From: Streptomyces sp. NBC_01335
GTDB lineage: Bacteria; Actinomycetota; Actinomycetes; Streptomycetales; Streptomycetaceae
Direction: 5' to 3'
NCBI RefSeq assembly: GCF_035953295.1
Contig: NZ_CP108370.1
Coordinates: forward strand, 3,997,001-4,061,000
DNA length: 64,000 nucleotides
Position numbers and translations under genes: made by a program. Shown piece after piece: positions 19,047 through 47,279 of this stretch (the first letter of the stretch is position 1; the number at the start of each line of letters is the position of its first letter). Under the pieces are notes generated by a model. That model searched no databases. It was not told the DNA's origin and saw nothing but the letters and a program-made list of their open reading frames with translations.

Positions 19047-19333
19047 AGGTGCTTCACCCCTTCCGGGATCTCGTAGAAGGTGGGGTGGCGGTAGGGCTTG
19101 TCGGCGGCCGGTTCGAAGAAGGAGTCCTTCTCGTCGGGGGACGAGGCGGTGACCGCGGTGGAGGGCACCACCCAGATCGAGACGCCCTCCGCGCGGCGGG
19201 TGTAGAGGTCGCGGGCGTTGCGCAGGGCCATGGTGGCGTCGGGGGCGTGCAGGCTGCCCGCGTGGGTGTGGGAGAGCCCTCGGCGGGAGCGGACGAACAC
19301 CTCCCACAGCGGCCAGTCGGTCGGGCTGCTCAT
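19043..19333 (-). CDS. paaB: Phenylacetyl-CoA epoxidase subunit PaaB
   Basis: 96 aa, matching the usual PaaB length. It begins with [41 protein letters not shown] and ends IPEGVKHL. PaaB bridges PaaAC dimers in the epoxidase complex. Its ATG overlaps the paaA stop by 4 bases. Confidence 0.95.
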
Positions 19334-20436
19334 GCCGTCGCCTCCTCGTTCCGGACCGGGGTGGTGGGTGCTTCCGTCGCGGTGCCCGCACCGGGGGAGG
19401 GTGCGGACGGGGACTGCTGGGAGGACGCCTGCGGGGGCGGAGCCTGCGAGAACTCGGGCCGCGCGTGCTTCGTGGCGTGCGCGGCGGCGGCGTCGCGGAC
19501 CCAGGCGCCCGCTTCGTGGGCGTCGCGGCGCTGGGCGAGCCGCTGGTCGTTGCACGGGCCGTTGCCCTTGAGCACCTCCTGGAACTCCGTCCAGTCGATG
19601 GCGCCGAAGTCGTGGCGGCCCCGGGCGTCGTTCCACCGGAGGTCGGGATCGGGGAGGGTGAGACCGAGGGCCTCGGCCTGGGGCACGCAGATGTCCACGA
19701 ACCGCTGCCGGAGCTCGTCGTTGGAGTGGCGCTTGATCTTCCAGGCCATCGACTGCGCGGAGTGCGCGGACGCGTCGTCCGGCGGGCCGAACATCATCAG
19801 CGACGGCCACCACCAGCGGTCCACCGCGTCCTGCGCCATCGCGTGCTGGGCCGGTGTGCCCCGGCTCAGCGCCAGCAGGAGTTCGTACCCCTGGCGCTGG
19901 TGGAAGGACTCCTCCTTGCAGATGCGGACCATCGCGCGGGCGTACGGGCCGTAGGAGCAGCGGCAGAGCGGCACCTGGTTGGTGATGGCGGCGCCGTCCA
20001 CCAGCCAGCCGATCGCGCCCACGTCCGCCCAGGTCAGCGTCGGGTAGTTGAAGATCGACGAGTACCTCTGGCGGCCGGCGTGCAGCTTGTCGAGCAGCTC
20101 CGCCCGGCTGGTGCCCAGGGTTTCCGCGGCGCTGTAGAGGTACAGGCCGTGGCCCGCCTCGTCCTGCACCTTGGCCATCAGGATGGCTTTGCGGCGCAGG
20201 GAGGGGGCGCGGGTGATCCAGTTGGCCTCGGGCTGCATCCCGATGATCTCGGAGTGCGCGTGCTGGGCCATCTGGCGGACCAGCGAGGCGCGGTACGCGT
20301 CCGGCATCCAGTCGCGGGGTTCGATGCGCTCGTCCGCCGCCACGGTGGCGTCGAACGCCGCCGCGCGGCCGTCCTCCCCCGCTGCGGCGGCGTCCGCACC
20401 TTCCGGTGACTGCCGACCTGCGGTCACTGTCGCCAT
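19330..20436 (-). CDS. paaA: Phenylacetyl-CoA epoxidase catalytic subunit PaaA
   Basis: 368 aa. A ferritin-like di-iron oxygenase, with ligand-bearing helices in [52 protein letters not shown] and related positions. It epoxidises the ring of phenylacetyl-CoA using O2. A non-conserved Pro/Ser/Gln-rich tail of about 45 residues follows the core. The start is ATG at 20436, with GGAG 6 bases upstream; a long upstream open frame is rejected because it runs antisense to the DUF5819 gene. A candidate PaaR operator lies 16 bp upstream. Confidence 0.95.
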
Positions 20437-20451
20437 GACCACTCCGTCCCG

Positions 20452-20465
20452 ACCGATCGTTCGGT
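20452..20465. promoter_or_regulatory. Candidate PaaR operator in front of paaA
   Basis: ACCGATCGTTCGGT on the plus strand is the reverse complement of the site at 25613-25626. The shared identity extends to 21 bp (20446-20466). It fits the pattern ACCG-NN-CG-NN-CGGT that I recall for actinobacterial TetR-type PaaR. It sits immediately before paaA and could also affect the divergent DUF5819 gene. Confidence 0.7.
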
Positions 20466-20511
20466 TCATCGACTTCAATGGTCGGTCGGCGGACCGTAGG
20501 GTGTCAACCCT

Positions 20512-21756
20512 GTGGATGGCCGAGGGATGATCGACGACGATCGGGGCGGTATGGAATCGGATCACAGGGGGCGCTCGGAACGTCGGTCGGCGGCCGGTGA
20601 GAGCGAGGGATCGGACGAGGTACGCGCGGACGCGGCGCCCGAGGAGGCGCCGGGACTCTCCACGGAGCGCACGGAGCGGCCCGGTGGGCCTGCCGTCGAG
20701 GAGCCGGCCGCCGGTGAATCCTCCGAAGGGGAGCCAGCCGGAGGGAAGTCCACCGTCGGGGAGTCCACCGTCGGGGAGTCCGCCGAAGGGGAGACCTCTG
20801 AAGGGAAGTCCGCAGAGGGGGAGCCCGAGGGGCGGGTTTCCGCGTCCTGGCCTCCCGGGACCGACGGGCATGAGTCCGCGCCGGGGCCCGGTGGGCCCGA
20901 CGCGGCCCGCGACCACGACGGGGACACCGCCGCTTCCGGCACCGCGCCGCACGCCCCGGGCGAGGAGGGCGACCGGCACGGCGCGGTGGCTGCCGGGCGC
21001 GGGGGCGGTGACGACGGTACGGGCGGAACCGGTGCGGCGTCCTGGGCGCTGTCCGGCGCGGCCCCGGGCCCGGCGCGGGTCGGGATGGCCGGGCTGTCGA
21101 CCGGGTACCGGGTCGTCGCGGGGCTGGTGATGGTCGGCGTCGGGCTGCTCGCCAGCGTGCACCTGGGCATGGTCTTCCTGCACGTCGCACCGTCGAACAC
21201 GCTCTCCAAGGAGCATGCGGAGACCGTCAACAAGTGGATCTATCCGGAGTTCGAGCAGAACTGGAAGCTCTTCGCTCCGAATCCGCTCCAGCAGAACATC
21301 TCCGTGCACGTCCGGGCGGAGGTCGTCCGCGCCGACGGGGACCACAGCACCACCCGCTGGATGAGCCTCACCGCGGAGGACGCCGCGGCGATCCGGAGCA
21401 ACCCGCTGCCCAGCCACGCCGACCAGAACGAGCTGCGCAGGGCCTGGGACTTCTTCGTCAACAGCCATGACGACAAGAACCGTTCGACCGGAACGCGCGG
21501 CGTGCTCGCCGAGGCCTATCTGCGGCGCATCGTGATGCTCCGCCTGGAAGGGCACGACTACGGCGGGACCGTCGAACGCATCCAGCTGCGTTCGTCGTCG
21601 CGCCGGGTCGCGGCGCCCCCGTGGAGCACCGAGAAGATCAGCACCCGTCCGATGTACCACGAGCTCGGGTGGTGGAACGTGTCCACCGACGATCTGCCCG
21701 AAGGCAGCGCGGCGGCCCGGGCGGCAGCGCCGTCCGGCGAGGAGGCCGACCAGTGA
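20512..21756 (+). CDS. DUF5819 family membrane protein
   Basis: 414 aa as called. Residues 1-190 are acidic, low-complexity and repetitive (GE-S-x-EGE-like units around 65-105). A TM segment (about 203-228, [25 protein letters not shown]) is followed by the conserved extracytoplasmic DUF5819 domain with [25 protein letters not shown]5819 genes commonly sit next to HTTM genes, as here with a 4-base overlap; function is not established. GTG at 20512 is 9 bases after TAGGGT and could be leaderless; ATG at 20527 or 20551 is equally possible. It is divergent from paaA. Confidence 0.82.
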
Positions 21757-23069
21757 GCACCGCCCCCACGGCGCCTGTCGCCGGCCCCGTCGGCCCCACC
21801 GGCCCCCGTTGGCCCTCGGGGCCGATCGGCCGTTCCGTCCAGCGGATCACCGCGTCCGCTCTCGGCCCGTACCAGAGCGCCGTGATCCGGATCGGGTTCA
21901 CCGCCACGTATCTGCTGTTCCTGCTGCGGGAAGTGCCGCACCGGCAGGAGCTCTACGGGCCGGACGGCCCCTGGCAGTGGGAGCTGGCGCACCGGCTGAT
22001 ATCCGACAACCACGCCTTCACCGTCCTGATGTGGTCGGACAGCTCCGCGTGGTTCGAGGCGGTCTACGCGCTCACCCTCGCGGCGGCCTTCTGCACGATG
22101 ATCGGGTGGCGCACCCGGACGATGTCCGTCCTGTTCATGGTCGGGGTCCTCTCGATCCAGAACCGCAACATCTTCATGGGCGACGGCGGCGACAACGTCG
22201 TCCATCTGATGGCGATCTACCTCGTGCTGACCCGCTGCGCCCAGGTCTGGTCGCTCGACGCGCGGCGGGCCGCACGGAACGCGGCGCGGCGGGCGCAGGG
22301 CCTGCGGCCGGCCCGGGACGTCGTCGGTCCGGTGCTCTGGTCGGTGCTGGGAGCGGTACTGGTGGTCGCCACGGTGGAGGACGGCCTCGGCGGCACCCGG
22401 TGGCTGCCGAAGCTGTTGTGGGTGCTCTGGGTGGGGGCCGCCGCCCAGTGGATCACGAACCGGAACGCGCCGGACGGGGAGGACCGGGTGCTGCTCGACG
22501 TGGTGGCCAACCTCGCCCACAACGCGGCCCTCGTGGTGATCATGGCCGAGGTCTGCCTGATCTACGCCACTGCGGGCTGGTACAAGATCCAGGGCTCGCG
22601 CTGGCAGGACGGCACCGCGCTGTACTACCCGCTCAAGCTCGACTACTTCACTCCGTGGCCCGAGCTCTCGAACCTGCTCGCGGGCAGCGCGGTGATGGTG
22701 ATGGTGGTGACGTACGCGACGGTGATCGTGCAGGTGGCGTTCCCGTTCACGCTCTTCAACCGGCGGGTCAAGAACGTCCTGCTCGTCGTGATGATGGGCG
22801 AGCACGCGGGGATCGCGGTCCTGCTGGGCCTGCCCTTCTTCTCGATGGCGATGATCTCGGCGGACGCCGTCTTCCTGCCCACCGTCTTCCTGGTGTGGCT
22901 CGGCGGCCGGGTCGGCGCCGGCCGGGACCGGCTGCTGGCCCGGGTCGGCAGCCGTACGGGCGCCGCCCGCGTGCCCGGCCCGCGAGGGCCCGCCGGGGCC
23001 GGGGCGGCCGGACCGGGCGGGGAGGCCCCGCAGCGTCCCGCCGACGGGGGCCATACGCTCGTCGGGTGA
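21753..23069 (+). CDS. HTTM domain protein (vitamin K-dependent carboxylase-like membrane domain)
   Basis: 438 aa with about 8-10 hydrophobic segments. It contains HTTM-type features: an N-terminal helix pair ([20 protein letters not shown]), [19 protein letters not shown], and the conserved [30 protein letters not shown] resembles the membrane half of gamma-glutamyl carboxylase, but the catalytic domain is absent, so carboxylation is not implied. The GTG start overlaps the DUF5819 stop, suggesting the two products act together in the membrane. The C-terminal ~50 residues are Gly/Ala/Pro-rich and disordered. Confidence 0.85.
23054..23068 (+). promoter_or_regulatory. Candidate leaderless promoter for the TrmH gene
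   Basis: TACGCT at 23054-23059, 6 bases, then GTG at 23066. It lies inside the end of the HTTM gene and matches the layout at 15101-15115. Confidence 0.5.
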
Positions 23070-23779
23070 GCAGTGAGACCGGCAGTACAGAGGAATGCGG
23101 GCCCTTCGTGGCCGAGGGGGCCGATCCGGCCGCGGAACCGGCGCAGTACGACGACGGGTTCGGGGACGGGATCGGTGTCGGACCGCACCCGTCCCCCTGG
23201 CCGGAGGGTGAGCGGTACGACCCCGAGCTGCTGGCGGGCGGCGACCGCCGCAACGTGGTGGACGAGTACCGCTACTGGACCCGTGAGGCGATCGTCGCCG
23301 ACCTGGACCTGCGGCGCCACGACTTCCACGTGGCGGTCGAGAACTGGGGCCACGACTTCAACATCGGCTCGGTCGTCCGCACCGCGAACGCCTTCCTCGC
23401 GAAGGAGATCCACATCGTCGGCCGGCGGCGCTGGAACCGGCGCGGTGCCATGGTCACCGACCGCTACCAGCATGTGCGCCACCACCCCGACACCGCGGAC
23501 CTGACCGCCTGGGCGGCGGCGGAGGGGCTGCCGATCATCGGGATCGACAACCTCCCCGGGGCCGTACCGCTGGAGCGGACCGTGCTGCCCCGGCGCTGTG
23601 TGCTGCTCTTCGGCCAGGAGGGTCCGGGCCTCACGGAGGAGGCCAGGGCCCACGCCTCGATGGTCTGCTCGATCGCGCAGTTCGGTTCGACGCGGTCGAT
23701 CAACGCGGGGGCGGCCGCCGCCGTCGCCATGCACGCGTGGATCCAGCGGTACGCGGACGTGCCGGACCCCTCGGCCTGA
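23066..23779 (+). CDS. TrmH/SpoU family RNA 2'-O-methyltransferase
   Basis: 237 aa. SPOUT motifs are present: motif 1 HDFNIGSVVRTANAF (about 94-108), motif 2 CVLLFGQEGPGLTEEA (about 178-193), and motif 3 IAQFGSTRSINAGAAAAVAMH (about 202-222). It methylates a ribose 2'-OH in tRNA or rRNA using SAM; the target nucleotide cannot be read from sequence. It overlaps the HTTM gene by 4 bases but has its own candidate leaderless promoter, so it may be only partly co-expressed with that pair. It converges on paaN. Confidence 0.9.
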   Translation: MSSETGSTEECGPFVAEGADPAAEPAQYDDGFGDGIGVGPHPSPWPEGERYDPELLAGGDRRNVVDEYRYWTREAIVADLDLRRHDFHVAVENWGHDFNIGSVVRTANAFLAKEIHIVGRRRWNRRGAMVTDRYQHVRHHPDTADLTAWAAAEGLPIIGIDNLPGAVPLERTVLPRRCVLLFGQEGPGLTEEARAHASMVCSIAQFGSTRSINAGAAAAVAMHAWIQRYADVPDPSA

Positions 23780-23848
23780 CGCCGGGCACCGTACGAAAGG
23801 ACCTCGGGCCCGGCGTCCTCAGGCCCGGGGTCTTCAGCCTCGGCGTCC

Positions 23849-25558
23849 TCAGGCCTGGCGGCGGACCTCGATGGTGCGGAAGCGGCCCGAGACGAAGGCG
23901 CCGTCGCAGAGGGCCGCGTTGGCCGCCGGGTTGCCGCCCGAGCCGTGGAAGTCCGAGAAGGCCGCCGTCTGGTTGACGTAGACCCCGCCGGTCAGGTTCA
24001 GCGACAGCTGGGCCGACTCCTCCAGGCAGACCTCCTCGATCGCGCGCTCCACCTCGGGCGAGGTGGTGTAGGCGCCGACCGTCATCGCGCCCTTCTCCCG
24101 GATCGTGCGGCGCAGCAGCTCCACCGCGTCGGCGACGGAGTCCACCGACACGGCGAAGGACACCGGGCCGAAGCACTCGGAGAGGTGGACGGGGTCGCCG
24201 CCGTCCGGGCCGGGCTCCTTGGCGAGGACCTTGACGACGACCGGCGTGCGCACCACCGCGTCGGGGAACTCCGGGTGCGCAACCTCGCGCGAGGCCAGGG
24301 CCACTTCGCCGAGGTCCGGGGCGGCTTCGAGCCGGCTCCGCACGTCCGGGTTGACCAGCGCCCCGAGGAGGGCGGTGGCGCGCGCGTCGTCGCCGAGGAG
24401 CCCGTCGACCGCCGCCGCGAGGTCGGCGACCACCTCGTCGTACGTCCTGGGGCCGGTGTCGGTGCTGATGCCGTCGCGGGGGACGAGGAGGTTCTGCGGG
24501 GTCGTGCACATCTGGCCGCTGTAGAGGGAGAGCGAGAACGCGAGGTTGGCGAGCATCCCGGCGTAGTCGTCGGTGGAGTCGATCACCACCGTGTTGACCC
24601 CGGCCTTCTCGGTATACACCTGGGCCTGACAGGCGTGGGTCTCCAGCCAGTCGCCGAAGGCGGTGGAGCCGGTGTAGTCGATGATCCGGACCTCCGGGCG
24701 CACCGCCAGCTCCTTGGCGATCCCCTCGCCGGGGCGCTCGGCCGTCAGCGCGACGAGGTTCGGATCGAAGCCGGTCTCGGCGAGCACCTCGCGCGCGATG
24801 CGGACGGTGAGCGCGAGCGGCAGCACGGCGCGCGGGTGCGGCTTGACGAGGACGGGGTTGCCGGTGGCGAGCGAGGCGAAGAGGCCCGGGTAGCTGTTCC
24901 AGGTGGGGAAGGTGTTGCAGCCGATGAGCAGCGAGACACCGCGCCCGACCGCGGTGAACGACTTCCGCAGCCGGAGCGGGTCGCGTTTGCCCTGCGGCTT
25001 GGACCAGTCGGCCCCGGCGGGGGTGCGCAGCTGCTCCTCGTACGCGTACGCCACCGCCTCCAGGCCGCGGTCCTGGGCGTGCGGGCCGCCCGCCTGGAAC
25101 GCCATCAGGAAGGCCTGCCCGCTGGTGTGCATGACGGCCTGCGCCAGCTCGTGCGTGCGGGCGCCGATGCGCGCCAGGATCTCCAGGCAGACCAGCGCCC
25201 GCGCCTCGGGGCCCGCGTCCCGCCAGGCGGCGGTGGCGGCGCGCATCGCGGGCAGCAGGACGTCGGGGTCGGCGTGCGGGTACTCGATGCCCAGCTCGGG
25301 GCCGTACGGGGAGGTCTCGGCGCCCGTCCAGCCGTCGGTGCCGGGCTGGCCGAGGTCGAAGCGGGTGTGCAGGAGCGCGTCGAACGCCGCCTTGCCCTCG
25401 GCCATGCCGAGGCTGCCGGGCGCCCCGCCTTCGCCGTACGCCTTGGGGTGCTCCGGGTGGGGTGACCAGTAGGCGCGGGTCCGGATGGCGTCGAGGGCCT
25501 GGTCGAGCGTGGGCCGGTGGGTCTCGGACAGCTTCTGGAGGGAGAGCGCGGCGGCCAT
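23849..25558 (-). CDS. paaN: Phenylacetic acid degradation protein PaaN (aldehyde dehydrogenase family)
   Basis: 569 aa, aldehyde dehydrogenase superfamily. Visible are the cofactor-binding segment SLLIGCNTFPTWNSYPGLFASLATGNPVLVKPHP, the strand IIDYTGSTAFGDWLE (about 290-304), and the catalytic-Cys loop SLYSGQMCTTPQNLLV (Cys at about residue 345). In the phenylacetate pathway PaaN-type enzymes process the semialdehyde from ring opening; the separate hydratase domain of PaaZ is absent. The start ATG at 25558 has AGGAG 9 bases upstream; ATG at 25576 overlaps that site. A palindromic operator lies about 55 bp upstream. Confidence 0.9.
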   Translation of the reverse strand: MAAALSLQKLSETHRPTLDQALDAIRTRAYWSPHPEHPKAYGEGGAPGSLGMAEGKAAFDALLHTRFDLGQPGTDGWTGAETSPYGPELGIEYPHADPDVLLPAMRAATAAWRDAGPEARALVCLEILARIGARTHELAQAVMHTSGQAFLMAFQAGGPHAQDRGLEAVAYAYEEQLRTPAGADWSKPQGKRDPLRLRKSFTAVGRGVSLLIGCNTFPTWNSYPGLFASLATGNPVLVKPHPRAVLPLALTVRIAREVLAETGFDPNLVALTAERPGEGIAKELAVRPEVRIIDYTGSTAFGDWLETHACQAQVYTEKAGVNTVVIDSTDDYAGMLANLAFSLSLYSGQMCTTPQNLLVPRDGISTDTGPRTYDEVVADLAAAVDGLLGDDARATALLGALVNPDVRSRLEAAPDLGEVALASREVAHPEFPDAVVRTPVVVKVLAKEPGPDGGDPVHLSECFGPVSFAVSVDSVADAVELLRRTIREKGAMTVGAYTTSPEVERAIEEVCLEESAQLSLNLTGGVYVNQTAAFSDFHGSGGNPAANAALCDGAFVSGRFRTIEVRRQA

Positions 25559-25612
25559 GGCGGACCAACTCCTCATCGAGCCGGGCGGGGACGTGCTGAC
25601 GGAGTTAGATTA

Positions 25613-25626
25613 ACCGAACGATCGGT
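25613..25626. promoter_or_regulatory. Candidate PaaR operator between paaN and the TetR gene
   Basis: ACCGAACGATCGGT, identical (inverted) to the site before paaA, with 21 bp shared (25612-25632). In this divergent gap it could control both paaN and the regulator itself. Confidence 0.72.
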
Positions 25627-25650
25627 CGGGACAAGGGGCCCCGGACAACC

Positions 25651-25659
25651 TGTGGACAA
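25651..25659 (-). other. DnaA box (TTGTCCACA on the minus strand)
   Basis: TGTGGACAA at 25651-25659 is an exact consensus Streptomyces DnaA box, 23 bp before the TetR start codon. It may be an isolated box. Confidence 0.5.
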
Positions 25660-25681
25660 CTCATGGGGGAGGATCGCGTTC

Positions 25682-26311
25682 ATGACCACGGCCAAGCGGG
25701 ACACGTACACCCCGGAGACGCTGCTCGCCGTCGCCGTGCGGGTCTTCAACGAGCGCGGATACGACGGCACGTCCATGGAGCACCTCTCCCGGGCGGCGGG
25801 CATCTCGAAGTCGTCGATCTACCACCATGTGGCGGGCAAGGAGGAGCTCCTGCGCCGTGCGGTGAGCCGGGCGATCGACGGGCTCTTCCGGATTCTCGAC
25901 GAACCGGGCGCGAACCGGGGGCGCGCGGTCGAACGGGTCGAATACGTCACGCGCCGCACGGTCGAGGTGCTGATGGCCGAGCTGCCGTACGTCACTCTGC
26001 TGCTGCGCGTCCGGGGCAACACGAAGACCGAGCGGTGGGCGCTGGAGCGGCGCCGCGAGTTCGACCAGCGGGTGTCGGCCCTGCTGAAGGCGGCCGTCGC
26101 GGACGGGGACCTCCGGGCGGACGTGGACATACGGCTGGCCACCCGGCTGCTGTTCGGCATGGTGAACTCGCTGGTCGAGTGGTACCGCCCGCAGCCCGAG
26201 GGGGTCGTCGGCGGTACGGGTGGCGCCCCGGACGGGGTTCTCGGGGCGGACGACCTGCCGGGGACCGTCGTACGCCTGGCCTTCGACGGGATGCGTTCCG
26301 CCGGCCGGTGA
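25682..26311 (+). CDS. paaR: TetR family regulator, probable PaaR
   Basis: 209 aa. The N-terminal helix-turn-helix (about 10-55) reads TYTPETLLAVAVRVFNERGYDGTSMEHLSRAAGISKSSIYHHVAGKEELL. The C-terminal ligand domain is TetR_C-like. Divergent position from paaN with a shared palindrome, and a second copy before paaA, points to the phenylacetate repressor, whose inducer in other Actinobacteria is phenylacetyl-CoA. The start is ATG at 25682, with GGAGG 9 bases upstream. Family certain, specific role inferred from context. Confidence 0.85.
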   Translation: MTTAKRDTYTPETLLAVAVRVFNERGYDGTSMEHLSRAAGISKSSIYHHVAGKEELLRRAVSRAIDGLFRILDEPGANRGRAVERVEYVTRRTVEVLMAELPYVTLLLRVRGNTKTERWALERRREFDQRVSALLKAAVADGDLRADVDIRLATRLLFGMVNSLVEWYRPQPEGVVGGTGGAPDGVLGADDLPGTVVRLAFDGMRSAGR

Positions 26312-26333
26312 CGGTTCGGGCGACAGCCGGCCG

Positions 26334-26849
26334 TCAGCCGATTTCGGTGGGGCGGTCGGTGCGGCCGTGGCCGAGTTCGGTCTCCTCGAACACCAGCAGG
26401 GTGCGGGTGGAGAGCACCTCGGGAATGGCCTGGATGCGGGTGAGGACGAGCTCGCGCAGCGCCCGGTTGTCCGGTGTGTGCACCAGGAGCAGTACGTCGA
26501 AATCGCCGCTGACCAGCGCGATGTGGGTGGCGCCCGGGAGTGCCTGGAGCTCCTCGCGCACGGTCCGCCAGGAGTTCTGCACGATCTTGAGCGTGATGTA
26601 GGCGGATGCTCCCTGTCCGGCCCGCTCGTGGTCGATCCGGGCGCTGAACCCGCGGATGACCCCGTCCTCCACCAGCCGGTTGATGCGGGCGTAGGCGTTG
26701 GCCCGCGATACGTGCACCTGCTCGGCGACGGCCCGTATCGAGGCCCGGCCGTCGGTACGGAGGATGCGCAGGATGTCCCGGTCGATGGCGTCCAGCGGGC
26801 GGGCCGGCGGTGTCGGGCCGGACCCCTCGGCCATTCGTTCAGCTGCCAT
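26334..26849 (-). CDS. bkdR: Lrp/AsnC family regulator, probable BkdR
   Basis: 171 aa. The N-terminal HTH (about 22-70: LDAIDRDILRILRTDGRASIRAVAEQVHVSRANAYARINRLVEDGVIRGF) is followed by an Lrp/AsnC ligand (RAM) domain (about 90-160). It is divergent from the bkdABC operon, the usual place for the regulator of branched-chain 2-oxoacid dehydrogenase genes. The start is ATG at 26849, after GGAGG. It converges on the TetR gene with a 22-bp gap. Confidence 0.88.
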   Translation of the reverse strand: MAAERMAEGSGPTPPARPLDAIDRDILRILRTDGRASIRAVAEQVHVSRANAYARINRLVEDGVIRGFSARIDHERAGQGASAYITLKIVQNSWRTVREELQALPGATHIALVSGDFDVLLLVHTPDNRALRELVLTRIQAIPEVLSTRTLLVFEETELGHGRTDRPTEIG

Positions 26850-26894
26850 GCCCCCGGGCCTCCCTGTTGTGGACGAGCTGCCTCCATCCCAGGC

Positions 26895-26916
26895 TGTGGA
26901 CAACCGTTTGTCCACA
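26895..26916. other. Head-to-head pair of DnaA boxes in the bkdR-bkdA gap
   Basis: TGTGGACAA (26895-26903) and TTGTCCACA (26908-26916) form an inverted pair separated by 4 bases. Both match the Streptomyces consensus exactly. They lie 45 bp from the bkdR start codon, where DnaA binding could also affect transcription. Confidence 0.65.
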
Positions 26917-26950
26917 GGGCGAGGGGGGCTGTAGCCAAATTGCGCCCACG

Positions 26951-26964
26951 ACCGAACAATCGGT
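26951..26964. promoter_or_regulatory. Variant of the PaaR palindrome in front of the first bkd operon
   Basis: ACCGAACAATCGGT differs from the two paa-operon sites at one central base (G to A); both ACCGA/TCGGT half-sites are intact. It is 153 bp upstream of bkdA and 102 bp upstream of bkdR. Confidence 0.6.
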
Positions 26965-27116
26965 AGGTGAGGCGCGTCACCCGGGCTCGCCCCGGGACGC
27001 GTCCACGTGCGACCGCCCCGACTCCGACGTACACCCCGACGTAGGGCGCGGGGCCCGGCGGGATTCCGTTCCCGGCCGGCCCGTGTGTCCGCCTCGTCGC
27101 CAAGGAGGTGCCTCTC

Positions 27117-28319
27117 ATGACGGTCCAAGAGCTGCCCGGCGCGGCCGGCTACCGGCCGGTGCCGCCCCCGGCCTGGAAGCCGCTCACCGACCCCGCCCCG
27201 CTGCTCCCGGACCCGGAGCCGTACCGGGTACTGGGTACGGACGCGGCGGCCGGAGCGGACCCGCGGCTGCTGCTGAGACTCCACGCCGAGTTGGTGCGGG
27301 GCCGCCGGTACAACGCGCAGGCGACCGCGCTCACCAAGCAGGGGCGCCTCGCGGTCTACCCGTCCAGCACGGGCCAGGAGGCCTGCCAGGTGGCCGCGGC
27401 GCTGGTGCTGGAGGAGCGGGACTGGCTCTTCCCGAGCTACCGCGACACCCTCGCGGCGGTGGCCCGGGGGCTAGATCCGGTCGACGCGCTGACGCTGCTG
27501 CGGGGCGACCGGCACACCGGTTACGACCCCCGTGAGCACCGGATCGCGCCGCTCTGCACCCCACTGGCCACGCATCTGCCGCACGCGGTGGGGCTGGCGC
27601 ACGCGGCGCGGCTCAAGGGCGACGACGTGGTGGCCCTGGCGATGGTCGGCGACGGCGGGACCAGCGAGGGCGATTTCCACGAGGCGCTGAACTTCGCGGC
27701 CGTCTGGCGGGCGCCGGTCGTCTTCCTCGTGCAGAACAACGGCTTCGCCATCTCGGTGCCGCTGGCCAAGCAGACGGCGGCACCGTCCCTCGCCCACAAG
27801 GCGGTCGGTTACGGCATGCCCGGCCGGCTGGTCGACGGGAACGACGCCGTCGCGGTGCACGAGGTGCTCGCCGCGGCGGTGGCGCTCGCCCGCGGCGGTG
27901 GCGGCCCGACGCTGGTGGAGGCGGTGACCTACCGCATGGACGCCCACACCAACGCCGACGACGCGACCCGCTACCGCTCCGGGGACGAGGTGGAGTCCTG
28001 GCGGGACCACGACCCGGTGCTCCTCATGGAGCGCGAGCTGACCGGGCGCGGCCTGCTGGACGAGGCCACCGCCGACGCGGTGCGCCAGGAGGCGGAGCGG
28101 ATGGCGGCGGCGCTGCGGGAGCGGATGAACGCCGATCCGGTGCTCGACCCGATGGACCTGTTCGCGCACGTCTACGCGGACCGGACCGGACCGCTGCGCG
28201 AGCAGGAGGCCGGGTTGCGTGCCGAGCTGGAGGCGGAGAGCGCGTACGAGGACGCCGAGGAGCAGCGGGACGGCCACGAGCGGTCCGGCCACGAGCGGAA
28301 CACGGAGGGCGGGCGATGA
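27117..28319 (+). CDS. bkdA: Branched-chain 2-oxoacid dehydrogenase E1 alpha subunit (copy 1)
   Basis: 400 aa. The thiamine diphosphate motif is GDGGTSEGDFHEALNFAAVWRAPVVFLVQNN (about 178-208), and the phosphorylation-loop region YRMDAHTNADDATRYR is present. With E1 beta it decarboxylates 2-oxo acids from Val/Leu/Ile, making branched acyl-CoA starters for fatty acids and polyketides. The start ATG at 27117 has AAGGAGG 8 bases upstream. The C-terminal ~40 residues are charged and low-complexity. First gene of bkdABC, coupled to bkdB by an ATGA overlap. Confidence 0.93.
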   Translation: MTVQELPGAAGYRPVPPPAWKPLTDPAPLLPDPEPYRVLGTDAAAGADPRLLLRLHAELVRGRRYNAQATALTKQGRLAVYPSSTGQEACQVAAALVLEERDWLFPSYRDTLAAVARGLDPVDALTLLRGDRHTGYDPREHRIAPLCTPLATHLPHAVGLAHAARLKGDDVVALAMVGDGGTSEGDFHEALNFAAVWRAPVVFLVQNNGFAISVPLAKQTAAPSLAHKAVGYGMPGRLVDGNDAVAVHEVLAAAVALARGGGGPTLVEAVTYRMDAHTNADDATRYRSGDEVESWRDHDPVLLMERELTGRGLLDEATADAVRQEAERMAAALRERMNADPVLDPMDLFAHVYADRTGPLREQEAGLRAELEAESAYEDAEEQRDGHERSGHERNTEGGR

Positions 28320-29338
28320 CCACGGCGGTGCGGGCGCGGGCGGGGCGTACGGGGCCGGCCACGATGGCCCAGGCGCTGGGGCGGGCACTGCGGGACGCGA
28401 TGGCGGAGGACTCCTCGGTGCACGTGCTCGGCGAGGACGTCGGCACGCTCGGGGGTGTTTTCCGGGTCACCGACGGTCTCGCGGCGGAGTTCGGCGACGA
28501 GCGGTGCACGGACACGCCCCTCGCGGAAGCGGGGATTCTCGGCGCCGCGGTCGGGATGGCGATGTACGGCCTGCGGCCGGTGGTGGAGATGCAGTTCGAC
28601 GCGTTCGCCTATCCGGCGTTCGAGCAGCTCGTCAGCCATGTGGCCCGGATGCGGAACCGTACCGGGGGCGCCCTGCCGATGCCCCTGACCGTGCGGATTC
28701 CGTACGGCGGCGGGATCGGCGGGGTCGAGCACCACAGCGACTCCTCGGAGGCGTACTACATGGCCACCCCGGGGCTCCACGTCGTCACCCCGGCCACCGT
28801 GGAGGACGCCTACGGGCTGCTGCGGGCCTCGATCGCCTCGGACGATCCCGTGGTGTTCCTGGAGCCGAAGCGGTTGTACTGGTCGAAGTCCGACTGGTCG
28901 CCGGAGGCTCCGGCGGAGGTCGGACCCATCGGCCGGGCGGTGGTCCGCAGGCCGGGGACGAGCGCGACGCTGATCACCTACGGCCCGTCGCTGCCGGTCT
29001 GCCTGGAGGCGGCCGAGGCGGCGGTGGCTGAGGGGTGGGACCTGGAGGTCGTCGATCTGCGGTCGCTGGTGCCGTTCGACGACGGGACGGTCGCCGCGTC
29101 GGTGCGGCGGACCGGGCGCGCGGTGGTCGTCCACGAGGCCGCCGGGTTCGGCGGGCCGGGGGGCGAGATCGCCGCGCGGGTGACCGAGCGGTGCTTCCAC
29201 CATCTGGAGGCGCCGGTGCTGCGGGTCGCCGGCTTCGACATCCCGTATCCGCCGCCGATGCTGGAGCGGCACCATCTGCCGGGGGTGGACCGGGTGCTCG
29301 ACGCGGTCGCCCGGCTCCAGTGGGAGGCGACGCGCTGA
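28316..29338 (+). CDS. bkdB: Branched-chain 2-oxoacid dehydrogenase E1 beta subunit (copy 1)
   Basis: 340 aa, standard E1 beta fold: GEDVGTLGGVFRVTDGL (about 42-58), RIPYGGGIGGVEHHSDSSEAYY, EPKRLYW, and the C-terminal swivel domain (ITYGPSLPVCLEAA...LRSLVPFDDGTV). It pairs with the alpha subunit. It has ~17 extra basic N-terminal residues relative to the second copy at 46288. 4-base overlap with bkdA and 1-base overlap with bkdC. Confidence 0.94.
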   Translation: MTTAVRARAGRTGPATMAQALGRALRDAMAEDSSVHVLGEDVGTLGGVFRVTDGLAAEFGDERCTDTPLAEAGILGAAVGMAMYGLRPVVEMQFDAFAYPAFEQLVSHVARMRNRTGGALPMPLTVRIPYGGGIGGVEHHSDSSEAYYMATPGLHVVTPATVEDAYGLLRASIASDDPVVFLEPKRLYWSKSDWSPEAPAEVGPIGRAVVRRPGTSATLITYGPSLPVCLEAAEAAVAEGWDLEVVDLRSLVPFDDGTVAASVRRTGRAVVVHEAAGFGGPGGEIAARVTERCFHHLEAPVLRVAGFDIPYPPPMLERHHLPGVDRVLDAVARLQWEATR

Positions 29339-30792
29339 TGCCCACGGTGCTCGAATTCAGGTTGCCGGACCTCGGCGAGGGGCTGACCGAGGCGTTGATC
29401 GTGCGGTGGCTGGTGGAGATCGGCGAGGTCGTCGCCGTGGACCAGCCGGTGGTCGAGGTCGAGACGGCCAAGGCCCTGGTGGAGGTGCCGTGCCCGTACG
29501 GGGGCGTGGTGACCGCCCGCTTCGGCGAGGAGGGGGCGGAACTCCCGGTCGGCGCCCCGCTGATGACGGTCGCGGTCGCACCGGGCCCGGCGGGTTCCGG
29601 CTCGACGGCCTCGGCGTCGGCTCCTGCGTCGGGTTCTGCCCCGGCTCCGGCTGCCACCTCGGCCGCCTCTGCGTCGGCCTCGGCTTCGTCGGACGCTTCG
29701 GGGAACGTGCTGGTCGGGTACGGCACGGCCGCCCCGGCGGCCCGGCGGCGGCGGGTCCGTCCCGTGTCCGCGTCGTCCCCCGTCGACGCCGCTGCGTCCG
29801 TCGGGGCCGGTCCGGTCGGTCCGGTCGGGGAGGCCACCTCGGTCGTGGAGGCCGGTCCGGTCGCCTCGGCCAAGGAGGCCGGTCCGGTCGCGGTCATCTC
29901 CCCGCTCGTCCGCAGACTGGCCCGGCAGCACGGAGTGGACCTCCGGGAGCTGGCGGGATCGGGGCCGGAGGGGCTGATCCTGCGGTGCGACATCGAGGCG
30001 GTGATCGAGCGGGCGTCCGCGGTGGGCGGTGAGCCCGCCGCCGGCGCGGTGCGGGCCGCCGGTGCGGTGGAGGTCTCCGCACCCCCGAGGGACGGTGCCG
30101 TGGCCGGCGAGCGGATCGCGTTGCGCGGAGTACGGGGCGCGGTCGCCGACAAGATGGCGCGCAGCCGGACCGAGATCCCCGACGCGACCTGCTGGGTGGA
30201 CGCGGACGCGACCGAACTGATGGCGGCCCGCGCGGCGATGAACAGGACGGCGGGTCCGAAGGTCTCGGTCCTCGCTCTGTTGGCCCGGATCTGCGCGGCG
30301 GCGCTGGCGAAGTACCCCGAGCTGAACTCCACCGTGGACACCGCCGCGCGGGAGGTCGTCCGGCTGCCCTCCGTCCACCTCGGGTTCGCCGCGCAGACGG
30401 ACCGGGGGCTGGTCGTGCCGGTGGTCCGGAACGCGCACGCGCGTTCCGTGGACGCGATGGCGGCCGAACTGGCCCGGCTCACCGAGGCGGCCCGGGACGG
30501 GAAGCTGACTCCGGCGGAGCTGACGGGCGGCACCTTCACGCTGAACAACTACGGCGTGTTCGGGGTGGACGGCTCCACACCGATCATCAACCACCCCGAG
30601 GCGGCCATGCTCGGGGTCGGCCGGATCGTCCCCCGGCCTTGGGTCCACGACGGCGAACTGGCGGTGCGTCAGGTGGTTCAGCTCTCGCTCACCTTCGACC
30701 ACCGGGTCTGCGACGGCGGCACGGCGGGCGGCTTCCTGCGGTACGTCGCCGACTGCGTGGAACAACCGGCCGTCCTGCTGCGGACCCTGTAG
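29338..30792 (+). CDS. bkdC: Branched-chain 2-oxoacid dehydrogenase E2 (dihydrolipoamide acyltransferase, copy 1)
   Basis: 484 aa. The lipoyl domain is at about 3-78 with the lipoylated Lys in VETAKALVEV. A long Ala/Ser/Gly/Pro linker contains the GYGTAAPAARRRR segment. The peripheral subunit-binding domain (about 183-220) reads ISPLVRRLARQHGVDLRELAGSGPEGLI. The catalytic acyltransferase domain (about 255-480) ends with TFDHRVCDGGTAG, where His and Asp are catalytic. The ATG overlaps the bkdB stop (TGATG). E3 is not encoded here and must come from elsewhere. Confidence 0.93.
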   Translation: MPTVLEFRLPDLGEGLTEALIVRWLVEIGEVVAVDQPVVEVETAKALVEVPCPYGGVVTARFGEEGAELPVGAPLMTVAVAPGPAGSGSTASASAPASGSAPAPAATSAASASASASSDASGNVLVGYGTAAPAARRRRVRPVSASSPVDAAASVGAGPVGPVGEATSVVEAGPVASAKEAGPVAVISPLVRRLARQHGVDLRELAGSGPEGLILRCDIEAVIERASAVGGEPAAGAVRAAGAVEVSAPPRDGAVAGERIALRGVRGAVADKMARSRTEIPDATCWVDADATELMAARAAMNRTAGPKVSVLALLARICAAALAKYPELNSTVDTAAREVVRLPSVHLGFAAQTDRGLVVPVVRNAHARSVDAMAAELARLTEAARDGKLTPAELTGGTFTLNNYGVFGVDGSTPIINHPEAAMLGVGRIVPRPWVHDGELAVRQVVQLSLTFDHRVCDGGTAGGFLRYVADCVEQPAVLLRTL

Positions 30793-45133: not shown

Positions 45134-46285
45134 GTGACCGTGGAGAGCACTGCCGCGCGTAAGCCGCGACGCAGTAGCAGCAGGCGCACCAGCGCCGCGA
45201 AGGCACCGCAGAGTTCCGAGCCTCAGCTCGTACAGCTCCTGACGCCCGAGGGCGAGCGGGTGGAGCACCCGGACTACAGCATCGACATCTCCCCCGAGGA
45301 GCTGCGCGGGCTGTACCGGGACATGGTGCTGACCCGTCGATTCGACTCCGAGGCGACCGCTCTGCAGCGCCAGGGCGAGCTGGGCCTGTGGGCCTCGCTG
45401 CTGGGCCAGGAGGCCGCGCAGATCGGCTCCGGCCGGGCGCTGCGCGACGACGACTACGTCTTCCCCACCTACCGCGAGCACGGCGTCGCCTGGTGCCGGG
45501 GCGTGGACCCGACGAACCTGCTCGGCCTGTTCCGCGGTGTGAACCACGGCGGCTGGGACCCGGCCACCAACAACTTCCACCTGTACACGCTGGTCATCGG
45601 CTCGCAGACGCTGCACGCCACCGGCTATGCCATGGGTGTCGCCAAGGACGGCGGCGACTCCGCCGTGGTCGCGTACTTCGGTGACGGTGCCACCAGCCAG
45701 GGCGACGTGGCCGAGGCGTTCACCTACGCCGCGGTCTACAACGCCCCCGTCGTGTTCTTCTGCCAGAACAACCAGTGGGCGATCTCCGAGCCCACCGCGC
45801 GCCAGACCCGGGTGCCGCTCTACCAGCGCGCCCAGGGCTACGGCTTCCCCGGCGTCCGGGTCGACGGCAACGACGTGCTCGCCTGCCTCGCGGTGACCAG
45901 GGCTTCGCTGGAGCGGGCCCGCACCGGCGAGGGCCCCACCCTCGTGGAGGCGTTCACCTACCGCATGGGCGCGCACACCACCTCCGACGACCCGACGAAG
46001 TACCGGGCCGACGAGGAGCGCGCCGCGTGGGAGGCGAAGGACCCGATCCTGCGGCTGCGCACGTACATGGAGAAGCAGAAGTTCGCGGACGAGGCCTTCT
46101 TCACCGCCCTGGAGGCGGAGAGCGAGGCGCTCGGCAAGGGCGTGCGTGAGGCCGTCCGCGCCATGCCGGACCCCGGTTCCATGGCGATGTTCGACCACGT
46201 CTACGCCGACGGCTCCTCGCTCGTCGACGAGGAGCGGGCCGAGTTCATCGCCTACCAGGCATCGTTCGTCGAGGAGGGGAACTGA
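45134..46285 (+). CDS. bkdA: Branched-chain 2-oxoacid dehydrogenase E1 alpha subunit (copy 2)
   Basis: 383 aa. A Lys/Arg/Ser-rich N-terminal extension (~30 residues) precedes the E1 alpha domain. Thiamine diphosphate motif GDGATSQGDVAEAFTYAAVYNAPVVFFCQNN (about 175-205), and TYRMGAHTTSDDPTKYR. Diverged from copy 1 (27117) in the substrate-facing segments, e.g. NHGGWDPATNNFHLY replaces the TGYDPREHRIAPL region. The start GTG follows GGAGGAG. First gene of a tight operon. Confidence 0.93.
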   Translation: MTVESTAARKPRRSSSRRTSAAKAPQSSEPQLVQLLTPEGERVEHPDYSIDISPEELRGLYRDMVLTRRFDSEATALQRQGELGLWASLLGQEAAQIGSGRALRDDDYVFPTYREHGVAWCRGVDPTNLLGLFRGVNHGGWDPATNNFHLYTLVIGSQTLHATGYAMGVAKDGGDSAVVAYFGDGATSQGDVAEAFTYAAVYNAPVVFFCQNNQWAISEPTARQTRVPLYQRAQGYGFPGVRVDGNDVLACLAVTRASLERARTGEGPTLVEAFTYRMGAHTTSDDPTKYRADEERAAWEAKDPILRLRTYMEKQKFADEAFFTALEAESEALGKGVREAVRAMPDPGSMAMFDHVYADGSSLVDEERAEFIAYQASFVEEGN

Positions 46286-46287
46286 CC

Positions 46288-47268
46288 ATGGCCGCGGAAA
46301 AGATGTCCATCGCGAAGGCGCTCAACGAGTCGCTGCGCCATGCCCTCGACACCGACCCCAAGGTCCTGATCATGGGTGAGGACGTCGGCAAGCTCGGCGG
46401 CGTCTTCCGGATCACCGACGGGCTCCAGAAGGACTTCGGCGAGGGACGGGTGATCGACACCCCGCTCGCCGAGTCCGGCATCGTCGGCACGGCGATCGGT
46501 CTGGCCCTGCGCGGCTACCGCCCCGTCGTCGAGATCCAGTTCGACGGCTTCGTGTTCCCCGCGTACGACCAGATCGTCACGCAGCTCGCGAAGATGCGCG
46601 CCCGTTCGCTCGGCAAGATCAAGCTGCCCGTCGTCATCCGTATCCCCTACGGCGGCGGCATCGGCGCGGTCGAGCACCACAGCGAGTCGCCCGAGGCGCT
46701 GTTCGCGCACGTCTCCGGTCTGAAGGTCGTCTCCCCGTCGAACGCGCACGACGCGTACTGGATGATGCAGCAGGCTCTCCAGAGCGACGATCCGATCATC
46801 TTCTTCGAGCCGAAGCGGCGTTACTGGGACAAGGGCGAGGTCGACACCGAGGCCATTCCGGTCCCGCTGCACCGCGCCGTCACGGTCCGCGAGGGCAGCG
46901 ACCTCACGCTCGTCGCGTACGGCCCGATGGTGAAGGTCTGCCTGGAGGCCGCCGCGGCGGCCGAGGAGGAGGGCAAGTCGGTCGAGGTCCTGGACCTGCG
47001 GTCGATGTCCCCGATCGACTTCGACGCCATCCAGGCCTCGGCCGAGAAGACCGGCCGGCTGGTCGTCGTGCACGAGGCCCCGGTCTTCTACGGCTCCGGC
47101 GCGGAGATCGCCGCCCGGATCACCGAGCGCAGCTTCTACCATCTCGAAGCACCGGTCCTGCGTGTCGGCGGCTACCACGTGCCGTACCCGCCGGCCCGGC
47201 TGGAGGACGAGTACCTGCCGGGTCTCGACCGGGTGCTCGACGCCGTCGACCGCTCGCTGGCGTACTGA
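46288..47268 (+). CDS. bkdB: Branched-chain 2-oxoacid dehydrogenase E1 beta subunit (copy 2)
   Basis: 326 aa. MSIAKALNESLRHALDTDPKVLIMGEDVGKLGGVFRITDGL, RIPYGGGIGAVEHHSESPEALF, EPKRRYW and the C-terminal domain with LDLRSMSPIDFDAI. Starts 2 bp after the bkdA stop. It forms the alpha2beta2 decarboxylase with copy-2 E1 alpha. Confidence 0.94.
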   Translation: MAAEKMSIAKALNESLRHALDTDPKVLIMGEDVGKLGGVFRITDGLQKDFGEGRVIDTPLAESGIVGTAIGLALRGYRPVVEIQFDGFVFPAYDQIVTQLAKMRARSLGKIKLPVVIRIPYGGGIGAVEHHSESPEALFAHVSGLKVVSPSNAHDAYWMMQQALQSDDPIIFFEPKRRYWDKGEVDTEAIPVPLHRAVTVREGSDLTLVAYGPMVKVCLEAAAAAEEEGKSVEVLDLRSMSPIDFDAIQASAEKTGRLVVVHEAPVFYGSGAEIAARITERSFYHLEAPVLRVGGYHVPYPPARLEDEYLPGLDRVLDAVDRSLAY

Positions 47269-47279
47269 GGAGAGGGGTC

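Follow-up and report, generated by a model that had tools for sequence, protein, structure and literature searches.

A shared operator-like palindrome suggests joint control of phenylacetate breakdown and the bkd operon in Streptomyces

A palindrome that precedes the phenylacetate (paa) genes of this Streptomyces recurs in the gap between bkdR and a branched-chain-type 2-oxoacid dehydrogenase operon, bkdABC; the shared switch site suggests joint control of phenylacetate breakdown and bkd. The copy at bkd (site 3) is a real, conserved element: read on the bkdR strand it is ACCGATTGTTCGGT, and it was intact upstream of bkdR in 211 of 217 loci. From sequence comparison we think it probable that the TetR-family protein encoded at 25682–26311 is PaaR and represses bkd together with paa via three operators, from which an acyl-CoA releases it.

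How much branched acyl-CoA is available to start fatty acids and many polyketides is expected to be set by the bkd operon. If the reading is right, precursor supply would have an unnoticed control point, namely PaaR at the bkd promoter in almost all Streptomycetaceae genomes examined. Altered morphology and antibiotic output of bkdR mutants are mentioned in the title of Sprusansky 2005, as listed in PMC9636800, and in a passage of PMC8176718. While PaaR itself is already known, bkd as its target appears to be unreported in the literature searched: we found no report of PaaR at bkd in the open-access papers covered, a scope that does not establish absence in print.

Genes of the locus and three operator copies

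Features of the window, i.e. the whole 64,000-nucleotide stretch of DNA that was analyzed, are collected in Table 1. The paaA product matched NCBIfam TIGR02156 at 510 bits (cut-off 280; stretch 19465–20436). The TetR gene is divergent from paaN, with which it shares a stretch in most of the named loci, and lies ∼5 kb from paaA; in the window as well as in relatives, the TetR gene and the paa operons carry an upstream palindrome of the ACCG...CGGT type. Among solved structures, the TetR protein has a close relative, PDB 2iai_A (‘Putative transcriptional regulator SCO3833’, E 1.9e-92), followed by a distant second-best one, PDB 3vpr (E 8e-18), which we take to be PfmR; in its own genome it has one match at E<=1e-30.

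Table 1. Coordinates of genes, operator copies and putative promoter elements in the window
Feature	Position	Strand	Remarks
paaA, phenylacetyl-CoA epoxidase subunit	19330..20436	-	start ATG at 20436; end from ORF
Operator 1, ACCGAACGATCGGT	20452..20465	-	∼15 bp before paaA start codon; 27.1 bits (paa-only matrix)
paaN ORF	23849..25576	-	start possibly 25558; NCBIfam TIGR02288 PaaN_2, 932 bits
Operator 2, ACCGAACGATCGGT	25613..25626	+	between divergent paaN and TetR gene; 29.3 bits (paa-only matrix)
TetR-family regulator, PaaR candidate	25682..26311	+	Pfam TetR_N 57.5 bits, TetR_C_24 60.1 bits
bkdR, Lrp/AsnC-family regulator	26334..26849	-	Pfam HTH_AsnC-type, AsnC_trans_reg
Possible -35 (TTGCGC), bkdA promoter, inferred	26940..26945	+	18 bp before possible -10
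Operator 3, ACCGAACAATCGGT	26951..26964	+	bkdR-bkdA gap; 25.9 bits (paa-only matrix)
Possible -10 (TAGGTG), bkdA promoter, inferred	26964..26969	+	overlaps last base of operator 3
bkdA, E1 alpha, branched-chain-type 2-oxoacid dehydrogenase	27117..28319	+	Pfam E1_dh
bkdB, E1 beta	28316..29338	+	Pfam Transket_pyr, Transketolase_C
bkdC, E2 acyltransferase	29332..30792	+	start approximate; Pfam 2-oxoacid_dh, Biotin_lipoyl, E3_binding

The E1 alpha, E1 beta and E2 genes adjoin bkdR in a layout like that of SCO3829-3832; a passage of PMC12323332 names SCO3832 of S. coelicolor bkdR and places it next to bkdA2 (SCO3831). The branched-chain preference of the complex is putative: the sequence fits E1 of the pyruvate, 2-oxo acid and branched-chain types alike, and the PDB relatives of bkdA include E1 alpha subunits of all three kinds of dehydrogenase. 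The window also contains a second bkd cluster; subunit lengths of S. avermitilis bkdFGH paired with neither cluster.

An earlier note on this DNA had placed one palindrome before paaA and in the paaN–TetR gap, and a variant with a single central base changed in the bkdR–bkdA gap. All three copies were confirmed at the positions and strands of Table 1, as were the 21 identical bases claimed for sites 1 and 2 (AACCGAACGATCGGTCGGGAC, read directly from the sequence). The actinobacterial PaaR core cited in that note, ACCG-NN-CG-NN-CGGT, held for the half-sites but not for the centre of site 3, which reads CA rather than CG; around this four-base centre the half-sites ACCGA and TCGGT are exact. CA/TG centres were seen in relatives’ paa sites too (19 of 108 paaN sites and some unlinked paaA genes).

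With up to two mismatches allowed, the window yielded five strand-matches, located at sites 1–3; shuffled sequences gave 0.76 on average and none of 100 reached five. In the complete genome (8,361,142 bases) the relaxed palindrome ACCGAWCRWTCGGT matched exactly at sites 1–3 only, and its reversed control had 0 exact matches. The motif did not prove common and unlinked to promoters, an outcome that the earlier note had named as counting against its proposal: the three exact places in 8.36 Mb each lie in a gap preceding genes. One mismatch added six places: two in one very long ORF; one in a 485-aa ORF; one at the start of a uvrB-like ORF, within its first codons; one 113 bp upstream of an ORF of 185 aa that matched no Pfam family; and one at genome position 6924442. 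Because these places are mostly within ORFs, we rejected them as extra targets.

Conservation of the third site and its likeness to paa operators

The 217 loci comprised the window, the best 80 of 435 relatives as named loci, 36 family regions (40 were fetched, of which 4 had no bkdR match and were left out) and a further 100 genomes of the family; species may be shared between named and other genomes. Site 3 was exact in 111 of the first 117 loci and in all 100 further family genomes; the TetR gene was absent from the fetched stretch in 3 of the 111 site-bearing loci. In a 150-genome family sample, 133 of 137 bkdR-positive genomes had the site (144 were bkdR-positive; 7 were left out). Flank identity in 27 rows from other genera averaged 0.46 and 0.59, these rows having been picked for holding the site, so that their core is identical by construction.

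Among bkd loci the 14-mer is almost constant, in contrast to paa sites, whose centres vary. Such near-invariance is not explained by PaaR binding alone and counts against our best explanation.

A weight matrix was trained on paa sites only, using every occurrence of ten listed 14-mers in chosen loci (212 in all, 43 distinct 20-mers; the site 3 type was excluded, and positions were not individually checked). It ranked site 3 third in the window, with the next place at 10.1 bits. In the scanned loci only 62 bkd-type sites reach the score of the window’s site 3; the rest score lower because of their flanks. Where paaA stands apart from bkdR, 39 of 40 genomes still had a PaaR-type site upstream of it; the half-sites were exact in 14 of these and carried one mismatch in 25. 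Among control pieces, 6 of 120 had such a site.

Presence of PaaR tracks the paa pathway. Among the 150 genomes PaaR was undetected in 8, PaaA in 6 and both in 5; the exceptions were G031, G034 and G038, the last a deep branch (PaaA present, PaaR undetected), and G138 (PaaR present, PaaA undetected in a genome 71% complete). In G015, with PaaR undetected, bkdR is present with no adjacent bkdA. In G020 PaaR adjoins bkdR and the paaN site is clear, yet site 3 is absent; therefore, the link between PaaR and bkd is not universal.

Proposed mechanism and competing explanations

In the mechanism that we favor, the TetR protein would serve this Streptomyces as PaaR, its phenylacetate repressor, and would bind one operator before paaA, a second in the gap that separates paaN from the TetR gene and a third in the bkdR–bkdA gap. 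At site 3 a PaaR dimer would sit in the bkdABC core promoter, in or next to the interval between the -35-like and -10-like elements, and ∼100 bp before bkdR; once bound, it would hold down expression of the 2-oxoacid dehydrogenase operon and perhaps also of bkdR. An acyl-CoA, most likely phenylacetyl-CoA, would release the repressor, and one signal would turn on both the breakdown of phenylacetyl-CoA and the dehydrogenase converting 2-oxoacids to acyl-CoAs. Binding, effector, repression and the choice between two divergent target genes are what we infer here; the coupling may serve the formation of phenylacetyl-CoA as much as the supply of branched-chain acyl-CoAs.

The -35 and -10 boxes are given as putative since a strict sigma-70 scan of the bkdR–bkdA gap returned 0 promoters. 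The bases after site 3 are TAGG in the window; among 100 further genomes they are TAGG in 80 and TTGG in 19.

PaaR could bind site 3 but chiefly target the divergent bkdR, with bkdABC affected via BkdR. In 84 of the 111 site-bearing loci the site lies 102 or 103 bp from the estimated start of bkdR, a nearly fixed spacing, while that to the estimated start of bkdA is variable (23–160 bp in 108 of 111), and a TTG within the operator might serve as the bkdR -35. However, 11 of the 111 loci, spread over several genera, have only 23–51 bp between the site and the estimated bkdA start, so that the site must touch the bkdA promoter region there; the short-distance loci displayed have a ribosome-binding-like sequence between site and bkdA. 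Given also that the bkd structural genes of S. rimosus rise by ∼5 log2 (PMC10612213), we regard bkdR as an unlikely main target.

Still less probable is that site 3 is a conserved core-promoter element, or an element for BkdR or another factor, with an accidental likeness to PaaR operators. Its lower variability in comparison with paa sites, as well as other conserved blocks in the bkdR upstream region, would fit such an element; however, its paa-only score was never reached in 3 Mb of random DNA (maximum 22.0 bits), and the second bkd cluster of the window lacks the operator (best score -8.6). Furthermore, the site has decayed in G010, the one clean lineage without PaaR that was found (genome 93% complete, ∼200 contigs): bkdR and bkdA are kept there, PaaR, PaaA and PaaK are all undetected, and site 3 is gone (best score -11.9), though the blocks on its bkdR side still align. 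This lineage disfavors BkdR as sole binder. The genera of G010 and G015, searched for more PaaR-less lineages, gave no further genomes.

A functionless chance match, for which we found the single central mismatch and nothing else, is rejected by the conservation in 211 of 217 loci against 0 of 100 further genomes for a reversed control, and its probability is negligible.

The reading offered earlier, that the phenylacetate repressor also touches bkdABC, thus appears supported by the near-invariance of site 3, the paa-only matrix score and the loss in G010.

Known regulators, expression in S. rimosus and a possible phenylpyruvate route

PaaR of Corynebacterium glutamicum, reportedly described by Chen et al. 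in 2012, is said to be, like the candidate here, an actinobacterial TetR repressor of paa genes, with the core ACCG-NN-CG-NN-CGGT. In S. pristinaespiralis, PaaR (SSDG_03033, Zhao et al. 2015) is presented in a passage of PMC10933834 as a TetR repressor of the paa cluster with the putative site AACGA-N4-TCGGT, a form that also precedes paaA in several of our relatives; that passage leaves a bkd target unmentioned, and orthology to the TetR protein here is putative. For Burkholderia cenocepacia PaaR, passages of the review PMC9493321 describe ACCGACCGGTCGGTT, an inverted repeat of 15 bp located at paa promoters, and release by ‘compound II’, taken to be phenylacetyl-CoA; as targets they name only the paaA, paaH and paaZ promoters. 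The predicted site of the Thermus thermophilus TetR repressor PfmR (TTHB023), TACCGACCGNTNGGTN, closely resembles the site here, but passages of PMC7022988 name fatty-acid genes, not a bkd operon, as targets. AccR and PccD are TetR regulators of acyl-CoA metabolism, and PccD is said to control the Saccharopolyspora branched-chain dehydrogenase operon (passage of PMC8176718); their sites differ from the PaaR type, that of AccR being GTTAA-N6-TTAAC (passage of PMC10933834).

According to the RNA data in Table 2 of PMC10612213, bkd E1a/E1b/E2 change by +5.0/+4.6/+4.7 log2 in S. rimosus HP126 versus wild type and paaE/D/C by +4.1/+3.5/+3.3; the change is +3.1 for paaK, whose locus tag places it far from these genes. 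In delta-v3 versus HP126, the bkd genes change by -2.9/-2.7/-2.7 log2, paaE/D/C by -1.4/-1.0/0 (no fall for paaC) and paaK by -1.3; bkdR is not in the table. If PaaR does control both gene sets, this could explain why they rise together in this industrial oxytetracycline strain. HP126 is heavily mutated and rearranged, and the rise may have another cause.

One could speculate that the PaaR-controlled bkd complex is also a phenylpyruvate dehydrogenase, converting phenylpyruvate to phenylacetyl-CoA, which would release PaaR, with supply and breakdown co-induced; we put this forward as a tentative possibility, doubtful rather than probable. A passage on S. pristinaespiralis (PMC7089894) may be adduced beside it. 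If true, a route from phenylalanine to the epoxidase would have no need for phenylacetate-CoA ligase (PaaK). PaaK had no match in the window’s own genome at E<=1e-30 and was undetected in 30 of 150 genomes, the 120 matches including some weak paralogs with E values between about 1e-31 and 1e-54. Of these 30 genomes 20 were listed: 3 are without PaaR and PaaA, and in 17 both proteins are retained along with the bkd operator. The own genome and these 17 are in line with phenylpyruvate dehydrogenase activity, which suggests a possible source of phenylacetyl-CoA for strains with no detected phenylacetate-CoA ligase.

Palindromes at the paa and bkd genes

All three palindromes which the earlier note had placed at the phenylacetate (paa) and branched-chain 2-oxoacid dehydrogenase (bkd) genes were found on the window sequence at the positions tabulated below, as were the 21 identical bases it had reported at sites 1 and 2; site 3 is identical to these two at 13 of 14 core bases. 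In the whole 8.36 Mb genome (the window is 3997001-4061000 of its main contig) the relaxed form of the palindrome, ACCGAWCRWTCGGT, occurs exactly at these three sites only, while the reversed control had no exact match.

Features of the window
Feature	Coordinates	Strand	Description
Site 1	20452-20465	-	palindrome before paaA
paaA			TIGR02156
paaN			TIGR02288
Site 2 (operator 2)	25613-25626	+	palindrome in the paaN/TetR gap
Further TGTGGACAA	25651-25659		after operator 2, ahead of the TetR start codon
TetR regulator (PaaR)	25682-26311	+	candidate phenylacetate repressor; closest solved relative 2iai = SCO3833
Dyad CTGTGGACAACCGTTTGTCCACAG	26894-26917		before bkdR
bkdR			Lrp/AsnC type
Site 3 (bkd site)	26951-26964	+	palindrome in the bkdR-bkdA gap
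bkdA-bkdB-bkdC			three adjoining genes of the bkd operon
Second bkd-type cluster	45134-48761		E1 alpha/E1 beta/E2

With a weight matrix made from paa-type sites only, site 3 scored 25.9 bits, versus 27.1 and 29.3 bits for the paa operators; the next-ranked window position had 10.1 bits, and the peak in 3 Mb of random DNA was 22.0 bits. Scores no lower than that of site 3 were obtained by 225 matches in 1.9 Mb of related loci; sorted by 14-mer type, 163 were paa-type (the matrix training sites included), 62 were bkd-type and none was anything else. Compared with what we take to be the PaaR core, site 3 departs in one feature, the central CA/TG, which is also present at 19 of 108 paaN sites of relatives and before some of their paaA genes.

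A PaaR-type site preceded paaA in 39 of the 40 genomes having paaA apart from bkdR (on another contig or >1 Mb off in 36, at roughly 13-31 kb in four), with half-sites exact in 14 and one mismatch in 25; among control pieces 6 of 120 had such a site. Some paaA sites of relatives are AACGA-N4-TCGGT, as printed for Streptomyces pristinaespiralis PaaR in a review (PMC10933834). Paralogous genes of thioesterase-ligase type and paaK-like genes (AMP-ligases) are where additional PaaR-type copies were located in relatives.

A known regulon accounts for sites 1 and 2, and its extension to the bkd operon through site 3 is well supported. Of the third PaaR site proposed in the earlier note, the site and its conservation were observed directly; binding, effector and sign of regulation we infer. 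No earlier report of PaaR at the bkd operon was found in a search of open-access literature.

Nine relatives from a single other genus, g7 (L133, L135-L137, L141-L143, L147 and L148), have a PaaR-type palindrome in a gap near position 3000 (1835 in L147); in L136 the genes on either side of the gap are of UvrD-helicase and WhiB type (Pfam calls on L136; the other eight loci were judged by gene layout). In L051 and other loci with ∼1.6 kb between the TetR gene and paaN, this interval holds a paaH-like gene divergent from paaN (called 3-hydroxyacyl-CoA dehydrogenase-like by eye from the L051 translation); a gene of this type is absent from the interval in the window.

Conservation and layout of the bkd site

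The bkdR relatives are Streptomyces. The exact 14-mer, ACCGATTGTTCGGT on the bkdR strand, was present in 78 of 80 named loci (the best 80 of 435 relatives found via BkdR); the remaining two, L076 and L079, have one base change each within it. Over the window, the named loci and 36 family regions it preceded bkdR in 111 of 117 bkdR loci, missing in L076, L079 and the family genomes G010, G015, G020 and G038. Within a 951-base stretch surrounding the start of bkdR, all 100 additional family genomes had the exact 14-mer and none had its reversed control. Among 27 loci that represent the family's other genera and were selected for holding the core, bases outside the element were weakly kept (mean identity 0.46 and 0.59 for the two flanks); all 27 retain the CC immediately preceding the core and the G one base past it. 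That paa sites vary in the centre and the bkd site almost never does suggests an element with a second role, perhaps within the bkdA promoter, the bkdR promoter or both.

Read in the direction of bkdA, the bases directly 3′ of the operator were TAGG in 80 and TTGG in 19 of the 100 additional genomes; a loosely kept TG is seen ∼18 bases further upstream in the displayed rows. At 11 of the 111 loci, just 23-51 bases lie between the operator and the estimated start of bkdA, and displayed loci with such short spacing have a ribosome-binding-like sequence in between. The arms of the dyad before bkdR include TTGTCCACA, presumably the Streptomyces DnaA box, and most displayed relatives have a TGTCCAC-like block at this position; the dyad may be bound by BkdR or point to a link with DnaA.

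A PaaR dimer at site 3 would block the bkdA promoter, and the same dimer would also be bound ∼100 bases ahead of bkdR. The effector of Thermus PaaR is phenylacetyl-CoA according to a title cited in PMC6651687, and that of Burkholderia PaaR is compound II in an excerpt of a review (PMC9493321), taken as phenylacetyl-CoA; by analogy, phenylacetyl-CoA would derepress bkd and paa together.

Occurrence of the bkd site and of PaaR across genomes

PaaR was detected in 386 of 394 family genomes; in the 150-genome sample PaaR was detected in 142 and PaaA in 144, with both undetected in five. Only G010 and G015 of these five have bkdR, with bkdA adjoining in G010 only. The top matrix score in the G010 bkdR-bkdA gap was -11.9 (the genome is a draft, 93% complete, and its PaaR absence is search-based); in the alignment the left half and centre of site 3 are decayed, with the right edge and bkdR-side blocks still discernible. 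In the deep-branching G020 PaaR adjoins bkdR and a good paaN site is present, yet the bkdR locus has no site 3; thus, the bkd site probably arose after the G020 branch separated.

The E1 subunits of the second bkd-type cluster share 42% and 55% identity with their counterparts in the first cluster, and the matrix scan found no PaaR-type site there. In G004, with PaaR and PaaA undetected, locus L127:7604-8717 carries five related palindromes 138-411 bp apart, one an exact ACCGAACAATCGGT and four with an altered edge.

Expression data and possible reasons for a paa-bkd coupling

In Table 2 of PMC10612213, as excerpted, S. rimosus HP126 compared with wild type shows increased log2 expression of bkd (SRIMR7_19995-20005, 4.6-5.0), the paa epoxidase (SRIMR7_19935-19945, 3.3-4.1) and a phenylacetate-CoA ligase (SRIMR7_35410, 3.1), the latter distant from the bkd and paa genes judging by locus tag; the derivative delta-v3, set against HP126, shows changes of -2.9 to -2.7, -1.4 to 0 and -1.3, respectively. 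This gene set is the one expected of a PaaR regulon. As HP126 bears numerous mutations and rearrangements, the joint rise counts as support, not proof. The authors read the bkd/paa rise as precursor supply, and a word search of the available text of that paper gave no mention of PaaR.

One possible reason to couple paa and bkd would be for acyl-CoA pathways to respond jointly. A bolder reading is that the bkd complex may convert phenylpyruvate to phenylacetyl-CoA; for this conversion the pyruvate-dehydrogenase-like PglB/C were suggested in a pristinamycin producer (PMC7089894). A query with PaaK (phenylacetate-CoA ligase) had no match at E ≤ 1e-30 in the NBC_01335 genome, though paaA, paaN and PaaR are present; other ligases could do its job there. 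The same query matched in 120 of 150 genomes, and among the 30 genomes without a PaaK match, 20 of which were listed, 17 of those 20 kept PaaR, PaaA and the bkd site.
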